From contig NZ_CP016780.1 in assembly GCF_002288325.1 (NCBI RefSeq), positions 1,178,001 to 1,242,000 on the forward strand: 64,000 bases of DNA. The letters run 5' to 3'. Position 1 is the first letter of the stretch. Each line of letters starts with the position of its first letter. Under the pieces are notes generated by a model. That model worked only from the letters and a program-made list of their open reading frames with translations, was not told the origin of the DNA and did no database searches. A program made the translations under genes and the position numbers. Source of the stretch: Candidatus Planktophila lacus. Lineage in GTDB: Bacteria; Actinomycetota; Actinomycetes; Nanopelagicales; Nanopelagicaceae. Positions 27,103 to 42,904 of the stretch are shown piece after piece.

Positions 27103-28677
27103 TTAAAGCGATTTCATCTTCTCTGCCAGATCTTTAATTAGATCGGCATTTGCTTCACGGTTAGGAACATCCAGGACTACAACGCTTAGCCCCTTAATTG
27201 GTGCAGTTATCTCTTTACTTAATTCTGCGGTGTTATCGATAGTTTTTCCGCTGATTCCCATTGATTTTGCAATCGCCGCAGGGTCTAGCCCGTGTGGTGT
27301 TCCAAAAACTTCTTCAAATCCTTCTACTCCGCGTTGTGGCAAAGTTGAGAAAATTCCGCCACCATCATTATTTACAACGAAGATCTTGAGGTTTACCTGG
27401 TCGTGATGAATTAACCCAGTTAAGTCATGCAGGAAAGCTAAATCTCCAAGTACTGCAATTGCCGAACCGTGATGTGTTGCAATTCCGGTTGCGGTAGAGA
27501 TATTTCCATCAATGCCTGCCAGACCACGATTTGCATAGGTTATGACTCCTGATCGTGCAGCTGCGAAAGCTTCGAGATCTCTAATGGGACGCGATGATGC
27601 GATAAACAGCGCTGTATCCGCAGAAAGGTTGGCTGCGATCTCACGAGCGATAAGTGGCTCAGACCAGATTGAAACATCTTTAACAACTTTGGCAGTGCGT
27701 TCAGAATATTTCTGCCATTTAGCGATCCATTCAGGATCGGCGGGTGCAACATAAAGTTCGGGAAGATCGGTAAAACGCTTATCTGCCGCGCGGTCTGAAT
27801 CCACTGTTGCAATGCGCGGATCAATAACAAATGTGGAACGTGCAGATTTGATGAGTGCGTTAACTGATCTAGACAGCGTTGTACGGCCAATTACGATCAC
27901 GGTATCTGGAGCTAAATCTTTTGCGATTGGAGTTGCTGTTAGAAATAGACTGGCATGGGCGTTTGCTTGCGCAAATGTCAGTGGATCCTCGCTAATTACC
28001 GGCCAACCGAGAGATTCAATAAATGCGCTAACCGCGGCAACTTCAAGTCCGCCACGGTCATGGCCAATTACTAGTAAGCCACGTGTTGATTTACTTGCGA
28101 GAGTTCCGGCTTTCTTGCGATCAAAGACTTTTGGTGGATTTACCTTTAAACCATCGAGCCACGCATCGTTATCATCACCAAGAAGTGGTTCTTCAAATTG
28201 CACATTGATATGTACTGGGCCGGTTTGAAGTGCGTTAAGTGGAAGTTCTAGCGGATAGGCCCCACCAGAAACATCGGAGAAGTAACGAACTGCTTTGCCA
28301 AAGATGCGTGCTTGCTCAGTGGTTTGGTTGGCGCCCGTTCGACGTAGTTCGGCTGGACGATCTGCAGTGATTACAAAGAGTGGGATATTTGAATGTGATG
28401 CTTCCAGAACTGCAGGATGGTAATTCGCAACCGCTGTTCCGCTAGTGCAGATAACTGGCACAGGACGATTACTGGCCTTTGCTAAACCAAGTGCGTAGAA
28501 AGCGGCAGTGCGTTCGTCGATGCGGATATGTAACTTAATCAAGCCGCGCTTTTGGGCCGCAACTAGTGCAAGAGATAAAGGCGCGTTTCGGGATCCTGGT
28601 GAAATAACTGCATCAGTTATTCCCGCCTCAAGAATTTGGCGAATGATTACCCGAGCCAGGGTTGTTGCTTGACTCAT
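27103..28677 (-). CDS. menD: SEPHCHC synthase (2-succinyl-5-enolpyruvyl-6-hydroxy-3-cyclohexene-1-carboxylate synthase)
   Basis: A 524-residue thiamine-diphosphate enzyme. The N-terminus TDAVISPGSRNAPLSLAL, the STSGT-like ICTSGTAVANYHPAVLEA and the cofactor-binding NRGLAGIDGNISTATGIA...VNNDGGGIFSTLPQ are diagnostic. It joins isochorismate and 2-oxoglutarate. ATG 28677 overlaps the menC stop as ATGA; the longer frame upstream is inside menC and unsupported. Confidence 0.96.
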   Translation of the reverse strand: MSQATTLARVIIRQILEAGITDAVISPGSRNAPLSLALVAAQKRGLIKLHIRIDERTAAFYALGLAKASNRPVPVICTSGTAVANYHPAVLEASHSNIPLFVITADRPAELRRTGANQTTEQARIFGKAVRYFSDVSGGAYPLELPLNALQTGPVHINVQFEEPLLGDDNDAWLDGLKVNPPKVFDRKKAGTLASKSTRGLLVIGHDRGGLEVAAVSAFIESLGWPVISEDPLTFAQANAHASLFLTATPIAKDLAPDTVIVIGRTTLSRSVNALIKSARSTFVIDPRIATVDSDRAADKRFTDLPELYVAPADPEWIAKWQKYSERTAKVVKDVSIWSEPLIAREIAANLSADTALFIASSRPIRDLEAFAAARSGVITYANRGLAGIDGNISTATGIATHHGSAIAVLGDLAFLHDLTGLIHHDQVNLKIFVVNNDGGGIFSTLPQRGVEGFEEVFGTPHGLDPAAIAKSMGISGKTIDNTAELSKEITAPIKGLSVVVLDVPNREANADLIKDLAEKMKSL

Positions 28678-29621
28678 GTAAGTAACTTCCCGACTCTCAT
28701 TATGCGATTCTTCCACCATTCGAAGCGATCGGGTGACACTTCAAGGCCATCTAGTTTTGGTGAAATCTGACCCAGCGCGATCTTTCCATCAACAATCTTA
28801 TGTTCTGCAACATCACGTGTCAGAAGTGAGCCTGTCGCTAAACCACAATCAAAGCTCAGATCACTAATTGATGCGGCAAGTTCAAGTCCATATTCGATTC
28901 CGATGGCACTTTCTAAAGCGCTAGAAACAACGACGGGCAGACCGTGGTGTTGAGCAATCTCAAGAGATCGTCGAATTCCTCCGAGTGGTTGCACTTTAAG
29001 CATCACAACATCTGCAGCATCGGTGAGGTCTACTTTAAATGGGTCGGTTGCTTTGCGAATGACTTCATCTGCTGCAATACGTAATGGAATCTTGATTCTG
29101 CGCTTTAGTTCACGTAGCTCTTCAATAGTTGCACAAGGTTGCTCAACATATTCAAGTGGGCCAATCTCTTCGTAATATGCGTAAAGATTAGTGAGCGCTT
29201 CTTCTACAGACCAGAGTCCGTTGACATCAACGCGGATTGCAGCCTTTGGAGCGTTAGAAAATACTCGAGCAACTCGCATGACGTCTTCAGTGAGATTACC
29301 TCCCACCTTTACTTTGAAAGTTTTTGCACCTGAAAATGTGCGCATCAGGGCTTCGATCTCTTTTTTATCATTTAGCTCTGGAATGGTTCCGTTGACTGCT
29401 ATTTCATTTCGGAAACGTTCGGGGCGAGCAACTGTTGCTGCTTCTATTGCACTAGCGAGCCATGGCGCGCACTCGTTATCGTCGTATTCCAGAAATGGTG
29501 AGAACTCTCCCCAGCCTTGCGGGCCCTGCAGCAGTGCAACTTCGCGATAAGTCACACCACGAAAATTGGTACGCGTGGGAATTGTGATTACGCGAAGGGT
29601 TGCAAGGAGGTCATCAAGCAT
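28674..29621 (-). CDS. menC: o-Succinylbenzoate synthase
   Basis: A 315-residue enolase-superfamily dehydratase. Catalytic features are the paired lysines in TFKVKVGG, metal ligands in RVDVNGLW, EQPCA and AADEV, and the final lysine in VVMLKVQPLGG. It makes o-succinylbenzoate from SHCHC. The ATG lies 5 nt after the menB stop and its own stop overlaps menD. MenH, which supplies its substrate, is not found in the window. Confidence 0.95.
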   Translation of the reverse strand: MLDDLLATLRVITIPTRTNFRGVTYREVALLQGPQGWGEFSPFLEYDDNECAPWLASAIEAATVARPERFRNEIAVNGTIPELNDKKEIEALMRTFSGAKTFKVKVGGNLTEDVMRVARVFSNAPKAAIRVDVNGLWSVEEALTNLYAYYEEIGPLEYVEQPCATIEELRELKRRIKIPLRIAADEVIRKATDPFKVDLTDAADVVMLKVQPLGGIRRSLEIAQHHGLPVVVSSALESAIGIEYGLELAASISDLSFDCGLATGSLLTRDVAEHKIVDGKIALGQISPKLDGLEVSPDRFEWWKNRIMRVGKLLT

Positions 29622-37133: not shown

Positions 37134-37901
37134 ATGTCACTCACCGTCAGACGCGCAGCGTTCTTTGACGTCGATAACACCTTGGTTCGTGGCTCAACAA
37201 TTTACTTCCTGGGCCGCGGCATGTACCAGCGCGGTTTCTTCACTAAATCAGATATTTCGCGATTTGTATTAGCCAATCTGAGATTTAGATTAACGGGGAC
37301 TGAAAAGCAGGATGAGATAAATCGCTTTCAAAAATCTGCCCAAGACTTTATCGGCGGCCATAACGTTTCTGAGATTAGAACTGTTGCACAAGAGATTTAT
37401 GACGAATATGTCTCTCCCTCACTTTGGGAAGGCACTATCGAAATCGCGCAAGCGCATCTAAATGATGGCGTAGAAGTTTGGTTGGTCACCGCAGCTCCGG
37501 AAGATATGGCAACGCTTATTGCGGAAAGACTTGGTTTTACTGGCGCTCTCGGCAGTAAGGCGGCGATAGTTGATGGCCACTACACCGGTGCAATGAACGG
37601 TCCGCTTTTGCACGGTAAAGAGAAAGCAGTTGCAATTGCAGAGATTGCTAAAGAGCGCGGATTTGTTCTAGCCGATTGCTTTGGATATTCCGATAGCCAC
37701 AATGATCTTCCTTTACTTCAAAGCGTTGGCCATCCATCTGCAATTAATCCTGATGCAAAGTTAAGAATTCGTGCACTTAAGGAGAATTGGCCGATCCATG
37801 ACTTCCGCAGAATGCGCTCTATCAATCGCTATCTGGGTCCGATCGTCTCGCGCGCTGCCTGGCTGGGAACTCGCTTAACTCCACGCAGAGAATCCAGATA
37901 A
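37134..37901 (+). CDS. HAD-IB family hydrolase (SerB-like)
   Basis: A 255-residue HAD-superfamily phosphatase. Motif I is FFDVDNTLVRGST (about 10-22), motif II is LVTAAPEDM, and motif III/IV is the lysine in GKEKAVAI followed by GYSDSHNDLPLL. The subfamily includes phosphoserine phosphatases and acyl- or lipid-phosphate phosphatases; this member resembles the mycobacterial SerB1 group, whose substrate is not settled. It stands alone between divergent and downstream promoters. Confidence 0.88.
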   Translation: MSLTVRRAAFFDVDNTLVRGSTIYFLGRGMYQRGFFTKSDISRFVLANLRFRLTGTEKQDEINRFQKSAQDFIGGHNVSEIRTVAQEIYDEYVSPSLWEGTIEIAQAHLNDGVEVWLVTAAPEDMATLIAERLGFTGALGSKAAIVDGHYTGAMNGPLLHGKEKAVAIAEIAKERGFVLADCFGYSDSHNDLPLLQSVGHPSAINPDAKLRIRALKENWPIHDFRRMRSINRYLGPIVSRAAWLGTRLTPRRESR

Positions 37902-37950: not shown

Positions 37951-40152
37951 ATGGAAACGCGCTCCTTTGCAGATTACTTACGTACCTTGGATGACGCTGC
38001 CCTAATATCCTTGTTTTCACATCGCCCAGATTTAATAACGCCGGTTCCACCTGATGTGGCATCTCTTGCAGTGCGCGCATCTTCTGCGCCCAGCCTGGCG
38101 CGCGCAATTGATGCGTTAAACGCCTGGCAATATCAAGTACTAGAAGCCTGCGCGATCGCTGCCGAACCATTTACCGAAAAAACCATTGCAGCGCTAACTG
38201 ATAAAGCAGCGCTCTTTGTTATTCCAGGCCTGCTCGAACGCGGCCTTATCTATCAAGGTAAAGATGGTTTCTATCTTCCAACCACCGTTCGCGAAGTCCT
38301 TGGCAATGAAATACAAGGACTTGGCCCACAGACTGTCGTTAAGTTAAATCTAAAGAAGTTAGATGAAGCACCAGCTGCTGCACAGAAAGCTTTGGAAGCA
38401 ATGGTCTGGGGTCCACCGCGCGGAACTGTTGCAGATGTAAAGAAGCCTGGCGCCGGCGTCGCTTGGTTACTTGAAAACAACTTTGTAGTTGCCGCTAATA
38501 CCAAGACAGTTCTTTTAGTGCGCGAAGTAGCTCTTGCGCTTCGTGGTGGCAAGTTACATAAAGAGTTACAAGTCCAAGAACCTACTTTGAAAACTGAGAA
38601 ACGCGATCTCAAGAGCGTGCAGTTAGCTGCGATCGCAAATATCACCACCTTCCTTAGATGGACAGAGGAGATTCTAAATTTCTGGGCGCAAGAGCCTGCC
38701 GATGCGCTGCGCTCTGGTGGCTTGGGAGTTCGCGATCTGAAAGTTCTCTCCACCCATCTTGGAGTCGATACCTCATGTGCCGCCTTTATCGCTGAGGTTT
38801 CATATTTGGCCGGACTCGTAACAATTGATGCCGATGATCGAATTCTTCCAACTACCCAATTTGATATCTGGTTGATGCAAACGCCATCTGCGAGATGGCA
38901 ATCTCTTGTTTCACCTTGGCTAATAACTTCTCGCGTGAGCGGTCTAGTTGGTAAAGATGAAAGTAAGAACGTTGCTCCACTTGGCCCAGAGTTAGATCGC
39001 GTATCTGCTGCACCAATCCGTAAGTTAGTTCTGCGCTTACTTTCCGAAAACCCATCTGTAGCACCTGAGTTCAACTCATTTGCAGCCCTGGCCACTTGGC
39101 ATATGCCGGCTAAGCGCAGCAACGGAATCCCAACTGATTATCTGCAGTGGGCGCTGCGCGAATCAGAATGGCTTGGAATTACTGGCCAAGGTGTAATTTC
39201 CAAATATGGCATCGAGTTCTTAGCAGGCGGTGAGTTAGAAAGCATTAACGAAGATCTACCTAAACCAGTTGATCACATACTTATTCAGAGCGATCACACC
39301 GCAATTGCCCCAGGACCTCTCGAACACGAAATCGCGCAAGAGCTTGCGATCTTGGCAGAGATTGAAAGTCGCGGTGGTGCGACTGTTTACCGATTCAGTG
39401 AAGCAACAATTCGCCGTGGTTTAGATCATGGCCGCAGTGGCGATGAAATTAAGGCCTTCTTAAAGAAGACTTCCAAGACTCCGATGCCACAGCCGCTTGA
39501 GTATTTGATTGCAGATGTTGCAAAGAAGCACGGCAAGTTGCGCGTTGGAAATACATCTGCGTTTATTCGATGTGAGGATGCTTCGCTAATCGCGCAGATC
39601 ATGAACGATAAGCGTTTAGATCTCTTATCGCTGCGCCAGATCGCGCCAGAAGTTTTAATCTGCCAACACGATGCCGGTGATGCTATGAATATTCTGCGCA
39701 GCTTTGGTTACCTTCCAGCCGGTGAAGATTCGCAAGGCGCTTTGCTGAGCGGACCGCGAATTCAGCGCGCTAAAACAAAAGCACGCCCACCAAGAATTAT
39801 CGGTGAGTTCGAGAGACCAGATGAGATTCAACTTGAAGGTGCACTACGTGCACTGCGCACTGGCGAAAAATCTAGCCACCGCCAAAGCACGATGCGAAAT
39901 ATTGCTTCCAATGCGCTGGGATCACTTCCTCGAACGACAGCCAATGAAACTTTAGATATTTTGGCTGATTATCTGCAGAACCAACCAGCTACATCTCTTT
40001 CAATCGGTTACGCCGATAACAATGGTCTGGTCTCGCATCGCATCATCGATCCGCTAAAACTCTCTGCTGGCTCACTTGTCGCGCGAGATCATGCGACCGG
40101 AGAAGTTCAAAGCTTCCGGATCGCTCGTATTACAGGTGTGGCAGCGATATGA
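37951..40152 (+). CDS. XPB-associated DNA-binding protein (Helicase_C_3 domain)
   Basis: A 733-residue cytosolic protein. The stretch ILIQSDHTAIAPGPLEHEIAQELAILAEIESRGGATVYRFSEATIRRGLD (about 438-490) is the signature of the helicase-associated C-terminal domain that resembles part of XPB/Ssl2. The N-terminal half is rich in winged-helix-like segments. No helicase motifs are visible. In Mycobacterium the homologue lies next to the XPB gene, as it does here with one gene between. It probably forms a complex with the XPB helicase or guides it to DNA; this is inference. Its stop overlaps the M20 start as ATGA. Confidence 0.85.
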   Translation: METRSFADYLRTLDDAALISLFSHRPDLITPVPPDVASLAVRASSAPSLARAIDALNAWQYQVLEACAIAAEPFTEKTIAALTDKAALFVIPGLLERGLIYQGKDGFYLPTTVREVLGNEIQGLGPQTVVKLNLKKLDEAPAAAQKALEAMVWGPPRGTVADVKKPGAGVAWLLENNFVVAANTKTVLLVREVALALRGGKLHKELQVQEPTLKTEKRDLKSVQLAAIANITTFLRWTEEILNFWAQEPADALRSGGLGVRDLKVLSTHLGVDTSCAAFIAEVSYLAGLVTIDADDRILPTTQFDIWLMQTPSARWQSLVSPWLITSRVSGLVGKDESKNVAPLGPELDRVSAAPIRKLVLRLLSENPSVAPEFNSFAALATWHMPAKRSNGIPTDYLQWALRESEWLGITGQGVISKYGIEFLAGGELESINEDLPKPVDHILIQSDHTAIAPGPLEHEIAQELAILAEIESRGGATVYRFSEATIRRGLDHGRSGDEIKAFLKKTSKTPMPQPLEYLIADVAKKHGKLRVGNTSAFIRCEDASLIAQIMNDKRLDLLSLRQIAPEVLICQHDAGDAMNILRSFGYLPAGEDSQGALLSGPRIQRAKTKARPPRIIGEFERPDEIQLEGALRALRTGEKSSHRQSTMRNIASNALGSLPRTTANETLDILADYLQNQPATSLSIGYADNNGLVSHRIIDPLKLSAGSLVARDHATGEVQSFRIARITGVAAI

Positions 40153-41258
40153 CGAGCGCCAATAGCGACCAATACGGCAGACTTAACCCTATGTTGGCAG
40201 CGATAGAAGCGTTGGTTCGTTGTGAATCACCGAGCGAAGATATTGAAGCTTGTCGCAACGTTGTTCGTTTAGCGAGCGATATTTCAACGCGCGTACTTGG
40301 AACACCTGCCCAGATAAAAGAGATCGAAGGCCGACCAGTTTTCTGGTGGGGATCAGATACTCCTGAAATTTTAATTTTGGCTCACCTCGATACCGTTTGG
40401 CCACATGGTTCTTATTCACCGCTCTGGGAAGTAAATGGCGATGTAGTTCGCGGCCCTGGCGTCTTTGATATGAAGGCGGGATTTGTTCAAGCCCTCTATG
40501 CGCTTAAGGGAATCTCTGAAGTTGGCGATCGCGTTGCACTTATTGCAACAACTGATGAAGAGACCGGAAGTTTTGCATCACGCAAATTAATTATGGATTT
40601 ATCCGCCAAAGCGAAGGCGGTATTAGTTCTAGAAGCATCGCTTAACGGAAAAGTTAAGACCGGGCGTAAAGGCACCGCGATGTACAAGGTCAGCGCACAT
40701 GGTCTGGCATCACATGCCGGCCTTGAACCAGAAAAGGGTGTCAACGCAACTGTTGAGATCGCGCATTTAATTCTGAAGTTATCTGCGTTAGAGGATTCAG
40801 CTCATGGAACAACTGTTGTCCCAACACTTCTTCGTTCTGGCAATAGCGCAAATACAGTTCCTGATTTAGCAGTGCTAGAAATTGATGCCCGATCTTTCTC
40901 AAAGGCCGAACTAGAGCGAATTGATAAGGCGATTAAAGCGCTGCCTTCTACGGTGTCTGGGGCGCGTATTGAAGTAACCGGTGGCTTAAATCGTCCGCCG
41001 CTACAACCTTCATCAACGAAAGAACTTTACGAGCGTGCAGAACGTGTCGCAAAAGAGATCGGCATGGCGCCTCTTGGTTGTGCCGAAGTCGGTGGCGCAA
41101 GCGATGGCAACTTTGCCGCGGCAGCTGGTGCGCAAGTACTAGATGGCTTAGGCGCAGTTGGCGGCGGAGCACATGCACCAAATGAATGGTTAAGTCTGAA
41201 ATCGATCGAAGAACGAAGTGCGCTTCTGCATGCTCTAATAAAGGATCTCTTGAAATGA
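40149..41258 (+). CDS. M20-family metallopeptidase (carboxypeptidase G2-like)
   Basis: A 369-residue zinc peptidase without a signal peptide. Metal and catalytic residues are visible in ILAHLDTVWP (His and Asp, about 76-85), GPGVFDMKAG (Asp), TTDEETGS (catalytic Glu pair), VLEAS and GGGAHAPNEW (last His). A dimerisation domain sits in the middle (about 170-285). It is embedded between the XPB partner and XPB with ATGA overlaps at both ends. Homologues cleave C-terminal glutamate from folates or act on dipeptides; the substrate here is unknown. Confidence 0.9.
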   Translation: MTSANSDQYGRLNPMLAAIEALVRCESPSEDIEACRNVVRLASDISTRVLGTPAQIKEIEGRPVFWWGSDTPEILILAHLDTVWPHGSYSPLWEVNGDVVRGPGVFDMKAGFVQALYALKGISEVGDRVALIATTDEETGSFASRKLIMDLSAKAKAVLVLEASLNGKVKTGRKGTAMYKVSAHGLASHAGLEPEKGVNATVEIAHLILKLSALEDSAHGTTVVPTLLRSGNSANTVPDLAVLEIDARSFSKAELERIDKAIKALPSTVSGARIEVTGGLNRPPLQPSSTKELYERAERVAKEIGMAPLGCAEVGGASDGNFAAAAGAQVLDGLGAVGGGAHAPNEWLSLKSIEERSALLHALIKDLLK

Positions 41259-42904
41259 GCGAAGGCCCGCTAATTGTTCAGAGCGATAAGACGCTCCTGC
41301 TAGATATTGATCATCCGATGTCGACAGAATGTCGTCGCGCTATTGCGCCTTTTGCTGAACTCGAACGTTCGCCTGAACATATTCATACCTACCGTTTAAC
41401 AAACCTTGGATTATGGAATGCGCGCGCTGCCGGCCACGATGCTGAGTTAGTTATCGATACTTTGATTAAGTATTCACGTTACGCAGTTCCGCATTCACTT
41501 CTTGTAGATGTTGCCGAAACTATGTCGCGTTACGGCCGTTTACGCCTTGAAGCCGACCCAGTACATGGCTTGATTCTTGTGACTACAGATGTCGGTGTAC
41601 TTGAAGAAGTTATTCGTGCCAAGAAGATTGCACCGCTACTCGGTGTGCGAATCGATCCGGAAACTATTGCAGTTCATCCCAGCCAACGTGGTGCGATCAA
41701 ACAATCACTACTGCGCTTAGGTTGGCCGGCAGAAGATTTCGCAGGTTATGTAGATGGCCAAGCACATGAAATCGCGCTAAAGCAGAGCGATTGGAAGATT
41801 CGTCCCTATCAAGAGTTAGCAGCAGAAGGTTTCTGGCACGGTGGTTCTGGCGTTGTTGTACTTCCTTGTGGCGCCGGAAAGACAATTGTCGGTGCTGCAG
41901 CAATGGCGCACGCCAAGGCAACAACTTTGATTTTGGTTACAAATACAGTTGCAGCGCGCCAATGGCGTGAAGAGTTGCTTCGTCGCACAACGCTTAATGA
42001 AGATGAGATCGGCGAATACTCAGGTGCTAAGAAAGAGATTCGCCCGGTCACAATTGCGACTTACCAAGTAATGACGAAGAAGAAGAACGGTGTTTACGCA
42101 CACCTTGATCTCTTCGATACCCACGACTGGGGCTTAATCATTTACGACGAAGTTCACTTGCTTCCAGCGCCGATCTTTCGCTTTACCGCTGATATTCAAT
42201 CGCGCCGCCGTTTAGGACTTACCGCAACGTTAGTGCGCGAAGATGGCATGGAGGGCGAAGTCTTTTCTCTCATTGGTCCCAAGCGCTTTGACGTTCCTTG
42301 GAAAGAGATTGAAGCGCAAGGGTATATCGCACCTGCTGAATGTATAGAGGTACGTGTAAATCTCACTGAAGCAGAGCGTCTCTTATACGCTACTGCCGAG
42401 CCTGAAGAGCGCTATCGCTACTGCGCAACTACCCGCACTAAACGTGATGTTGTTGAAGAACTTGTCGGTCTACATGCAGGAGAGCAGATTCTTGTGATCG
42501 GGCAATATATCGATCAGTTGGATGATCTCTCTGAAACGCTTGGCGTTCCGGTAATTAAAGGTGAGACACCAATCAAAGAGCGCGAAAAGCTCTTTGCAGC
42601 ATTTCGTTCAGGTGAAATAACTTGTCTAGTTGTATCAAAAGTCGCCAATTTTTCAATTGATCTACCTGAGGCAACCATTGCGATTCAGGTATCTGGAGCA
42701 TTTGGTTCTCGTCAGGAAGAAGCACAGCGCTTAGGGCGTATCTTGCGACCAAAGGCGGATGGACGAGGTGCAAAGTTTTACTCAGTTGTATCGCGAGACA
42801 CTATCGATCAAGATTTCGCGCAAAACCGCCAACGCTTCCTTGCTGAACAAGGTTATTCATACCAAATTATTGACGCAGACGATGTGTATAAAGGCAAGAT
42901 TTAA
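41255..42904 (+). CDS. XPB/ERCC3-type DNA helicase
   Basis: A 549-residue superfamily 2 helicase. A damage-recognition-like domain lies N-terminal (about 50-130), Walker A is LPCGAGKTIVGAA (about 204), the DEVH box is at about 297, and LTATLVREDGMEGEVFSLIGPKR carries the RED motif found only in XPB. A C-terminal helicase domain ends in EEAQRLGRILRPK. ATG 41255 overlaps the M20 stop (ATGA). Bacterial XPB proteins unwind DNA 3' to 5' in vitro; the cellular role is poorly known. The last 38 nt overlap the convergent glutaredoxin gene. Confidence 0.95.
   Translation: MSEGPLIVQSDKTLLLDIDHPMSTECRRAIAPFAELERSPEHIHTYRLTNLGLWNARAAGHDAELVIDTLIKYSRYAVPHSLLVDVAETMSRYGRLRLEADPVHGLILVTTDVGVLEEVIRAKKIAPLLGVRIDPETIAVHPSQRGAIKQSLLRLGWPAEDFAGYVDGQAHEIALKQSDWKIRPYQELAAEGFWHGGSGVVVLPCGAGKTIVGAAAMAHAKATTLILVTNTVAARQWREELLRRTTLNEDEIGEYSGAKKEIRPVTIATYQVMTKKKNGVYAHLDLFDTHDWGLIIYDEVHLLPAPIFRFTADIQSRRRLGLTATLVREDGMEGEVFSLIGPKRFDVPWKEIEAQGYIAPAECIEVRVNLTEAERLLYATAEPEERYRYCATTRTKRDVVEELVGLHAGEQILVIGQYIDQLDDLSETLGVPVIKGETPIKEREKLFAAFRSGEITCLVVSKVANFSIDLPEATIAIQVSGAFGSRQEEAQRLGRILRPKADGRGAKFYSVVSRDTIDQDFAQNRQRFLAEQGYSYQIIDADDVYKGKI

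Follow-up and report, generated by a model that had tools for sequence, protein, structure and literature searches.

A p52-like partner of XPB, as judged from its predicted fold, and a probable metabolic lodger between the two genes in Candidatus Planktophila lacus

In TFIIH, the clutch of p52 is folded like the N-terminal domain of XPB and the two domains pair, whereby XPB is recruited (PMC6422496). For bacteria, a 2012 paper reports that p52 homologs had not been found and that a complex around bacterial XPB was yet to be identified (PMC3353954), and a 2026 review calls the function of XPB more elusive in archaea and bacteria (PMC13024598). We found no p52-like XPB partner described for bacteria in the open-access literature, bioRxiv and most subscription journals lying outside that search. 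The other relevant system is metabolic, namely the tandem of an N-succinylamino acid racemase (NSAR) and an L-succinylase in Geobacillus kaustophilus (PMC7431475). Here we compare with these systems a three-gene string of Candidatus Planktophila lacus (Nanopelagicaceae, abundant lake Actinomycetota), in which the gene of an M20 metallo-hydrolase stands between those of an XPB helicase and its partner. The string lies on the plus strand of the window, by which we mean the whole stretch of 64,000 nucleotides that was analysed (contig NZ_CP016780.1, positions 1,178,001 to 1,242,000); the source genome is a single contig of 1.38 Mb, 99.97% complete.

The reading that we consider likely joins two parts: the partner and XPB constitute a p52-like repair or remodelling module, and M20 is a metabolic lodger of a GNAT/NSAR cassette. 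The XPB helicase (549 aa, 41255..42904, plus strand) has an N-terminal Helicase_C_3 domain (Pfam, residues 6-133) followed by the helicase core, and scores 849.5 bits with the curated NCBIfam model repair_heli_XPB (NF045503), the cut-off of which is 610. With the protein read from 41255, this model already matches at residue 5, so the longer start proposed by the ORF finder (41186) is unneeded. The partner (P733, 733 aa, 37951..40152, plus strand) is recognised by its Pfam Helicase_C_3 domain (PF13625, E 4e-39).

The strongest association in our data is that of the partner with XPB, and these two are the real pair. In 224 genomes of the class outside Nanopelagicaceae, the sample used for all class-wide tables below, both genes are present in 192, the partner alone in two, XPB alone in none and neither in 30. 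Partner matches were counted at E 1.8e-34 or better, so XPB, whose N-terminal domain scores only about 1e-9 against the partner profile, could not be mistaken for the partner. Of 60 class loci sampled from 27 other families, 51 have the partner gene upstream of XPB in the same orientation; among the nine that do not, four (L193, L202, L215, L222) offer just 1.4-2.4 kb of sequence upstream, and L173 has the partner close by on the opposite strand. A phylum sample of 198 genomes has XPB in 25, eight of them outside the class. There the partner lies upstream within 1.5 kb in seven loci, the eighth being cut by a contig end, and none of the seven readable loci has M20 beside XPB. XPB was also detected in two control genomes, one of them that of Corynebacterium glutamicum.

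The partner begins with a helical part rich in winged helices, continues with a Helicase_C_3 domain (residues 443-565, 39277..39645, plus strand) that shares its fold with the N-terminal domain of XPB and resembles the p52 clutch, and ends with a WYL domain (residues 663-733, 39937..40149, plus strand). These two domains are all that Pfam finds in the window protein at E up to 1. At that threshold WYL is present in 41 of 44 partner relatives (best E 2e-12, the window's copy 0.054), and PADLOC also matches it (E 8.7e-5). The AlphaFold model of the partner (pLDDT 88, pTM 0.74) was compared with the PDB by Foldseek, which returned TFIIH p52 chains first (8ebt_D, E 3.2e-8, 492 columns), followed by XPB and, after it, by WYL proteins, PafBC among them. 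VIA-align superposed residues 439-593 on human XPB (Z 14.5, rmsd 3.6, 151 residues), residues 663-733 on the WYL domain of PafBC (Z 11.1, rmsd 1.1, 69 residues) and residues 208-528 co-linearly on p52 125-399 (Z 13.2, rmsd 11.0, 234 residues). A p52 fragment that lacks the clutch, namely the N-terminal half, matches as well (6tru_D, Z 9.6, rmsd 4.2, 151 residues; 6tru_A, Foldseek E 0.01). The predicted model thus shows the arrangement characteristic of TFIIH p52, i.e., a winged-helix series followed by an XPB-NTD-like clutch.

Alternatively, the partner may not be p52-like by descent: winged helices and a domain of the XPB-NTD type could have been joined independently in a WYL regulator that accompanies XPB. 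We regard this as a tentative but serious possibility, the best of the competing explanations. The Tfb2 domain was not found in 44 partner sequences (25 of the 28 Pfam families matched being shown), the partner profile reaches Tfb2 at just E 0.34 over 28 residues, and WYL domains are typical of regulators. Whole-chain TM-scores to p52 chains are low (0.12-0.29) with rmsd mostly 13-27, as the domains are oriented differently. Set against this are the first rank of p52 in Foldseek over about 490 columns in chain order, the match of its clutch-less half, and the presence of the partner in every XPB-bearing genome of the class sample. We conclude that the partner looks and probably works like p52; we do not file it in the p52 family because the fold is that of a predicted model, the domain orientation is mismatched and sequence similarity is close to nil. 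It is a more unusual protein than M20, and the novelty of the unit lies in it.

Given the domains and the near-perfect co-occurrence of the two genes, we suggest that in Actinomycetota the partner joins XPB in a module for DNA repair or remodelling that acts like the XPB-p52 part of TFIIH. The clutch-like domain of the partner would pair with the XPB N-terminal domain, hold XPB and tune its ATPase, and the WYL tail probably senses or binds single-stranded DNA. Whether this amounts to a TFIIH-like two-protein core of Actinomycetota, with XPB joined to a p52-like recruiter and regulator whose WYL domain couples it to single-stranded DNA or damage signalling, appears to us evenly balanced.

The M20 gene (369 aa, 40149..41258, plus strand) overlaps the partner gene at 40149..40152 and the XPB gene at 41255..41258, both times by ATGA; the three genes and two such junctions proposed in a first-pass annotation of the window are there in the DNA. 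ATGA by itself is weak evidence, because overlaps are common in the window: 21 of its 48 same-strand neighbour pairs overlap, 11 by NTGA and 10 by one base. The conservation of the string is more telling. Partner, M20 and XPB follow each other in 78 of 80 loci from named genomes, the remaining two beginning or stopping at a contig end, and this order is far beyond chance. M20 stands directly upstream of XPB on the same strand in 91 of the 96 family genomes (out of 121) that were listed for both genes; among the other five, M20 and XPB are on different contigs in four and the XPB match is partial in one. M20 of the window's kind is present in 114 of 121 family genomes, including all 77 that are at least 90% complete. 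The proposal of one conserved, tightly coupled three-gene unit therefore stands: the coupling is real and as old as the family Nanopelagicaceae. A fixed ratio of the three proteins, also proposed from the overlaps, is not general. Among the 78 relatives that carry the whole string, 48 have NTGA at the partner/M20 junction, and in 30 a few to about 50 bases separate the two genes. At the M20/XPB junction NTGA occurs in 37, and an 8-base overlap is possible in 39 of the other 41.

The window M20 shares 99% identity with its counterpart in Candidatus Planktophila lacus MMS-21-148. In three pairs, with synonymous sites near saturation, dN/dS is 0.06-0.08 for M20, 0.04-0.07 for the partner and 0.01-0.02 for XPB, so M20 is under purifying selection. 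One family locus (L019, genome G118) has no partner within 1.5 kb before M20. Upstream of the string is the gene of a HAD-IB family hydrolase (37134..37901, plus strand), which ends 49 bases before the partner; it is a frequent neighbour in Nanopelagicaceae, seen in most family loci with enough upstream sequence, L046 being an exception.

Outside Nanopelagicaceae (f1 in our numbering, in which f5 is its sister family and f34, f38 etc. are further families of the same class), an M20 of this type lies beside XPB in just one of the 27 other families, the related family f34, where it does so in all five loci read. Among the 44 of 59 f34 genomes listed for both genes, M20 is directly upstream of XPB in 38, adjacent but convergent in two, 52 kb away in one and on another contig in three. 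The convergent cases (G414 and G422, loci L331 and L332) look as after a local inversion. In f34 two opposite-strand genes are found between the partner and M20, one coding for an enolase-superfamily protein (312 bits with TIGR01928, the cut-off of which is 201), the other for a protein some 280 residues long. Pfam matched nothing in two examples of the second protein, but its AlphaFold model (pLDDT 92.8) shows a GNAT fold, with N-acetyltransferases making up nearly all of the 50 Foldseek PDB matches shown. The complete arrangement (partner, NSAR and GNAT on the opposite strand, M20, XPB) occurs in six f34 loci (L220, L221, L223, L338, L345, L346). The N-succinylamino-acid-racemase pathway, reportedly described by Sakai in 2006, consists of just such an enolase, an acyltransferase and an M20 hydrolase.

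Across the class, the occurrence of M20 follows GNAT and not XPB. M20 and XPB occur together in 57 of the 224 genomes, M20 alone in nine, XPB alone in 135 and neither in 23 (p = 1), while M20 and GNAT occur together in 50, M20 alone in 16, GNAT alone in 15 and neither in 143 (odds ratio 30, p 1.4e-22). These genome-level tables took all 66 M20 and 65 GNAT positives. GNAT lies within 2 kb of at least 42 of 61 strong M20 matches; 42 is a lower bound, since typing covered neither the GNAT rows beyond about 9e-31 nor some of the second copies, and 18 weaker M20 rows (E 4e-64 to 8e-41) are outside this count. Relatives of M20 are located beside both GNAT and enolase in single loci of f9, f11, f14, f17 and f26 and in two of f19, beside GNAT alone in two f20 loci and another f11 locus, and beside enolase alone in three f14 loci, f43 and f12 (with GNAT 9.5 kb away in f12). 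The M20 subfamily is thus linked to GNAT and NSAR in relatives. We did not count as cassette evidence locus L171 (f2), where a distant enolase on a very long branch is under the TIGR01928 cut-off.

The enolase is of the TIGR01928 type in the four cases tested from f34, f38 and f1. That it is a mere o-succinylbenzoate synthase (MenC) was rejected for f1, f34 and f38, as 21 of 22 genomes tested there possess a dedicated MenC besides (E 1e-30 or better, in 17 of them above the curated cut-off). These families can probably do without the linked enolase as MenC. A dedicated MenC was found in just five of 12 genomes tested of other families, where the GNAT-linked enolase may serve as MenC. The window itself carries a dedicated MenC of the PRK02901 type (365 bits) at 28674-29621.

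The variants of the locus suggest how M20 came to lie between the partner and XPB. In f5 the partner and XPB genes overlap, with no M20, and in genus g97 of f34 they are separated by GNAT and enolase, again with no M20. A tree of M20 sequences from a hand-chosen subset (16 from Nanopelagicaceae, 11 from f34 and 20 others) places the family and f34 as sisters (98/91), separate from the remaining sequences of the class, which gives the conserved M20 clade that the first-pass annotation had proposed to look for. One insertion followed by differing losses is the simplest reading. The cassette would have sat between the partner and XPB in the ancestor of Nanopelagicaceae and f34; Nanopelagicaceae would then have lost the GNAT/enolase pair from the locus, kept M20 and packed it into the tight string. 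A GNAT-enolase pair away from the XPB locus is present in five of 22 sampled Nanopelagicaceae genomes (L339-L343). Its GNAT groups weakly with f34 and f38 (72/86) and its enolase with other class sequences and not with that of f34 (89/90); because the two groupings differ, both a moved pair and a separate arrival would fit. In genus g87 of f34, all six sampled genomes (G281, G327, G424, G431, G438, G445) lack XPB and M20, a pattern that fits loss of the whole locus; G281, which was also searched for the partner, lacks it too.

Mere packing of genes that have nothing to do with each other into one operon, as a streamlined genome might do, had been offered as one explanation; the position of M20 would then have no history, which would agree with the frequency of overlaps in the window. 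We find it unlikely, as f34 has M20 in the same position with the cassette partners alongside, and its M20 belongs to the sister clade. The shared position and the sister clades point to an inherited insertion and not to a local accident.

As to its activity, M20 clearly belongs to its family (PF01546, 85.5 bits, cut-off 24.6; PF07687, M20_dimer, 63.3 bits, cut-off 21), and residues H79, D107, E137, E138, E162 and H342, whose metal-binding and catalytic roles we presume from carboxypeptidase G2 (CPG2), are invariant in 32 aligned rows and intact in the window protein. CPG2, in whose group M20 had earlier been placed, provides the closest solved structures (E 5.5e-36), but the score with the curated glutamate carboxypeptidase model NF004788 is under the cut-off (196 vs 349 bits). 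R173 and K174 never vary among the 32 aligned M20s, yet CPG2 does not have them in the alignment. A CPG2-like folate or peptide hydrolase therefore seems an improbable identity for M20. Presence that is independent of XPB and follows GNAT indicates that M20 is probably not an XPB protein and most likely the deacylase of an amino-acid cassette. It is probably an L-specific N-succinyl- or N-acyl-amino-acid hydrolase, which together with the GNAT acyltransferase and the enolase resembling N-acylamino-acid racemase would convert D- to L-amino acids. In the window genome, we would guess that it scavenges N-acyl-amino acids.

A functional link between repair and the peptidase had been put forward, in which M20 would serve the XPB system, for example in the processing of repair proteins, peptide tags or folate compounds, and in spite of the order kept in Nanopelagicaceae and f34, the 4- or 8-base M20/XPB overlap possible in 76 of 78 relatives, the adjacency retained in the two convergent f34 genomes and a more distant M20 (38% identity) convergent and just downstream of XPB in one f20 genome (G269, L161), we reject it as very improbable, since M20 is independent of XPB, with nine M20-bearing class genomes devoid of XPB, the pair exists without M20 in f5 and g97, and elsewhere M20 accompanies GNAT/NSAR. 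Among the families read, M20 of this kind beside XPB is confined to Nanopelagicaceae and f34, largely the restriction to close relatives that the first-pass annotation had named as speaking against such a link. A virus-borne M20 was rejected, as a scan sensitive to close relatives alone found none among viral contigs, and so was a defence system, since PADLOC gave matches to the XPB helicase core (best PbeA, E 2.8e-21) and the partner WYL domain and none for M20.

Several further observations weigh against the p52-like module with M20 as a lodger. The partner is remote from XPB in several class genomes, e.g., by about 23 kb in G229 and elsewhere on the chromosome in G289, so that the two genes are less strictly linked in position than in presence. 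Kinship does not enter the Fisher tests, yet the contrast between M20-GNAT and M20-XPB uses the same genomes. No typed GNAT was found within 2 kb of 19 of the 61 strong M20 matches, and M20 has neither GNAT nor NSAR near by in L358 and L362 (f36), L361 (f22), L363 (f38) and L364 (f19); a different f36 M20 copy does have a GNAT neighbour. In the window genome, no GNAT match was found at E 1e-10, and an NSAR-like enolase is not among the typed matches, the two strongest of four MR_MLE-type ones being galactonate dehydratase and MenC. As M20 is nevertheless kept in all the near-complete family genomes, the present substrate of the window M20 may differ. Concerning the history of the locus, f38 has GNAT/NSAR between the partner and XPB with no M20 there, which would fit more than one order of events. 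In the quick XPB tree, f1, f5, f34 and f38 come together with moderate support (SH-aLRT 84) and f1 joins f5 (96). The grouping of the Nanopelagicaceae enolase away from that of f34 belongs here as well.

Overall, with a partner that no XPB-bearing genome of the class sample lacks, and that combines a WYL tail with a predicted fold like that of p52, the role of bacterial XPB becomes testable with two proteins. If the proposal is true, the pair would correspond in bacteria to the XPB-p52 clutch of eukaryotes, and bacterial XPB would have the partner that had not been identified according to the 2012 paper (PMC3353954). M20 serves as a caution that a conserved operon position in streamlined genomes can stem from a lodged metabolic cassette and need not reflect shared function.

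Compared with known systems, the window M20 shares the sequence family and the zinc-site pattern of CPG2 (M20A), but it is under the subfamily cut-off and has other neighbours. With the NSAR/acyltransferase/L-succinylase pathway the locus has in common that GNAT, NSAR-like enolase and this M20 subfamily adjoin in f34 and several other families; the window genome differs in that M20 alone of the three was found in it, and the substrate assigned to it is a putative one. The archaeal XPB-Bax1 helicase-nuclease likewise unites XPB with a dedicated partner (PMC7293015, PMC13024598), whereas Pfam matched no nuclease domain in the Actinomycetota partner. The comparison with TFIIH covers XPB and its partner. 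Unlike p52, the Actinomycetota partner ends in a WYL domain, with no p8-binding domain recognised, and sequence similarity is very weak. What the two share, here in a predicted model and there as described for TFIIH (PMC6422496), is an XPB accompanied by a partner with winged helices and with a clutch folded like the N-terminal domain of XPB.

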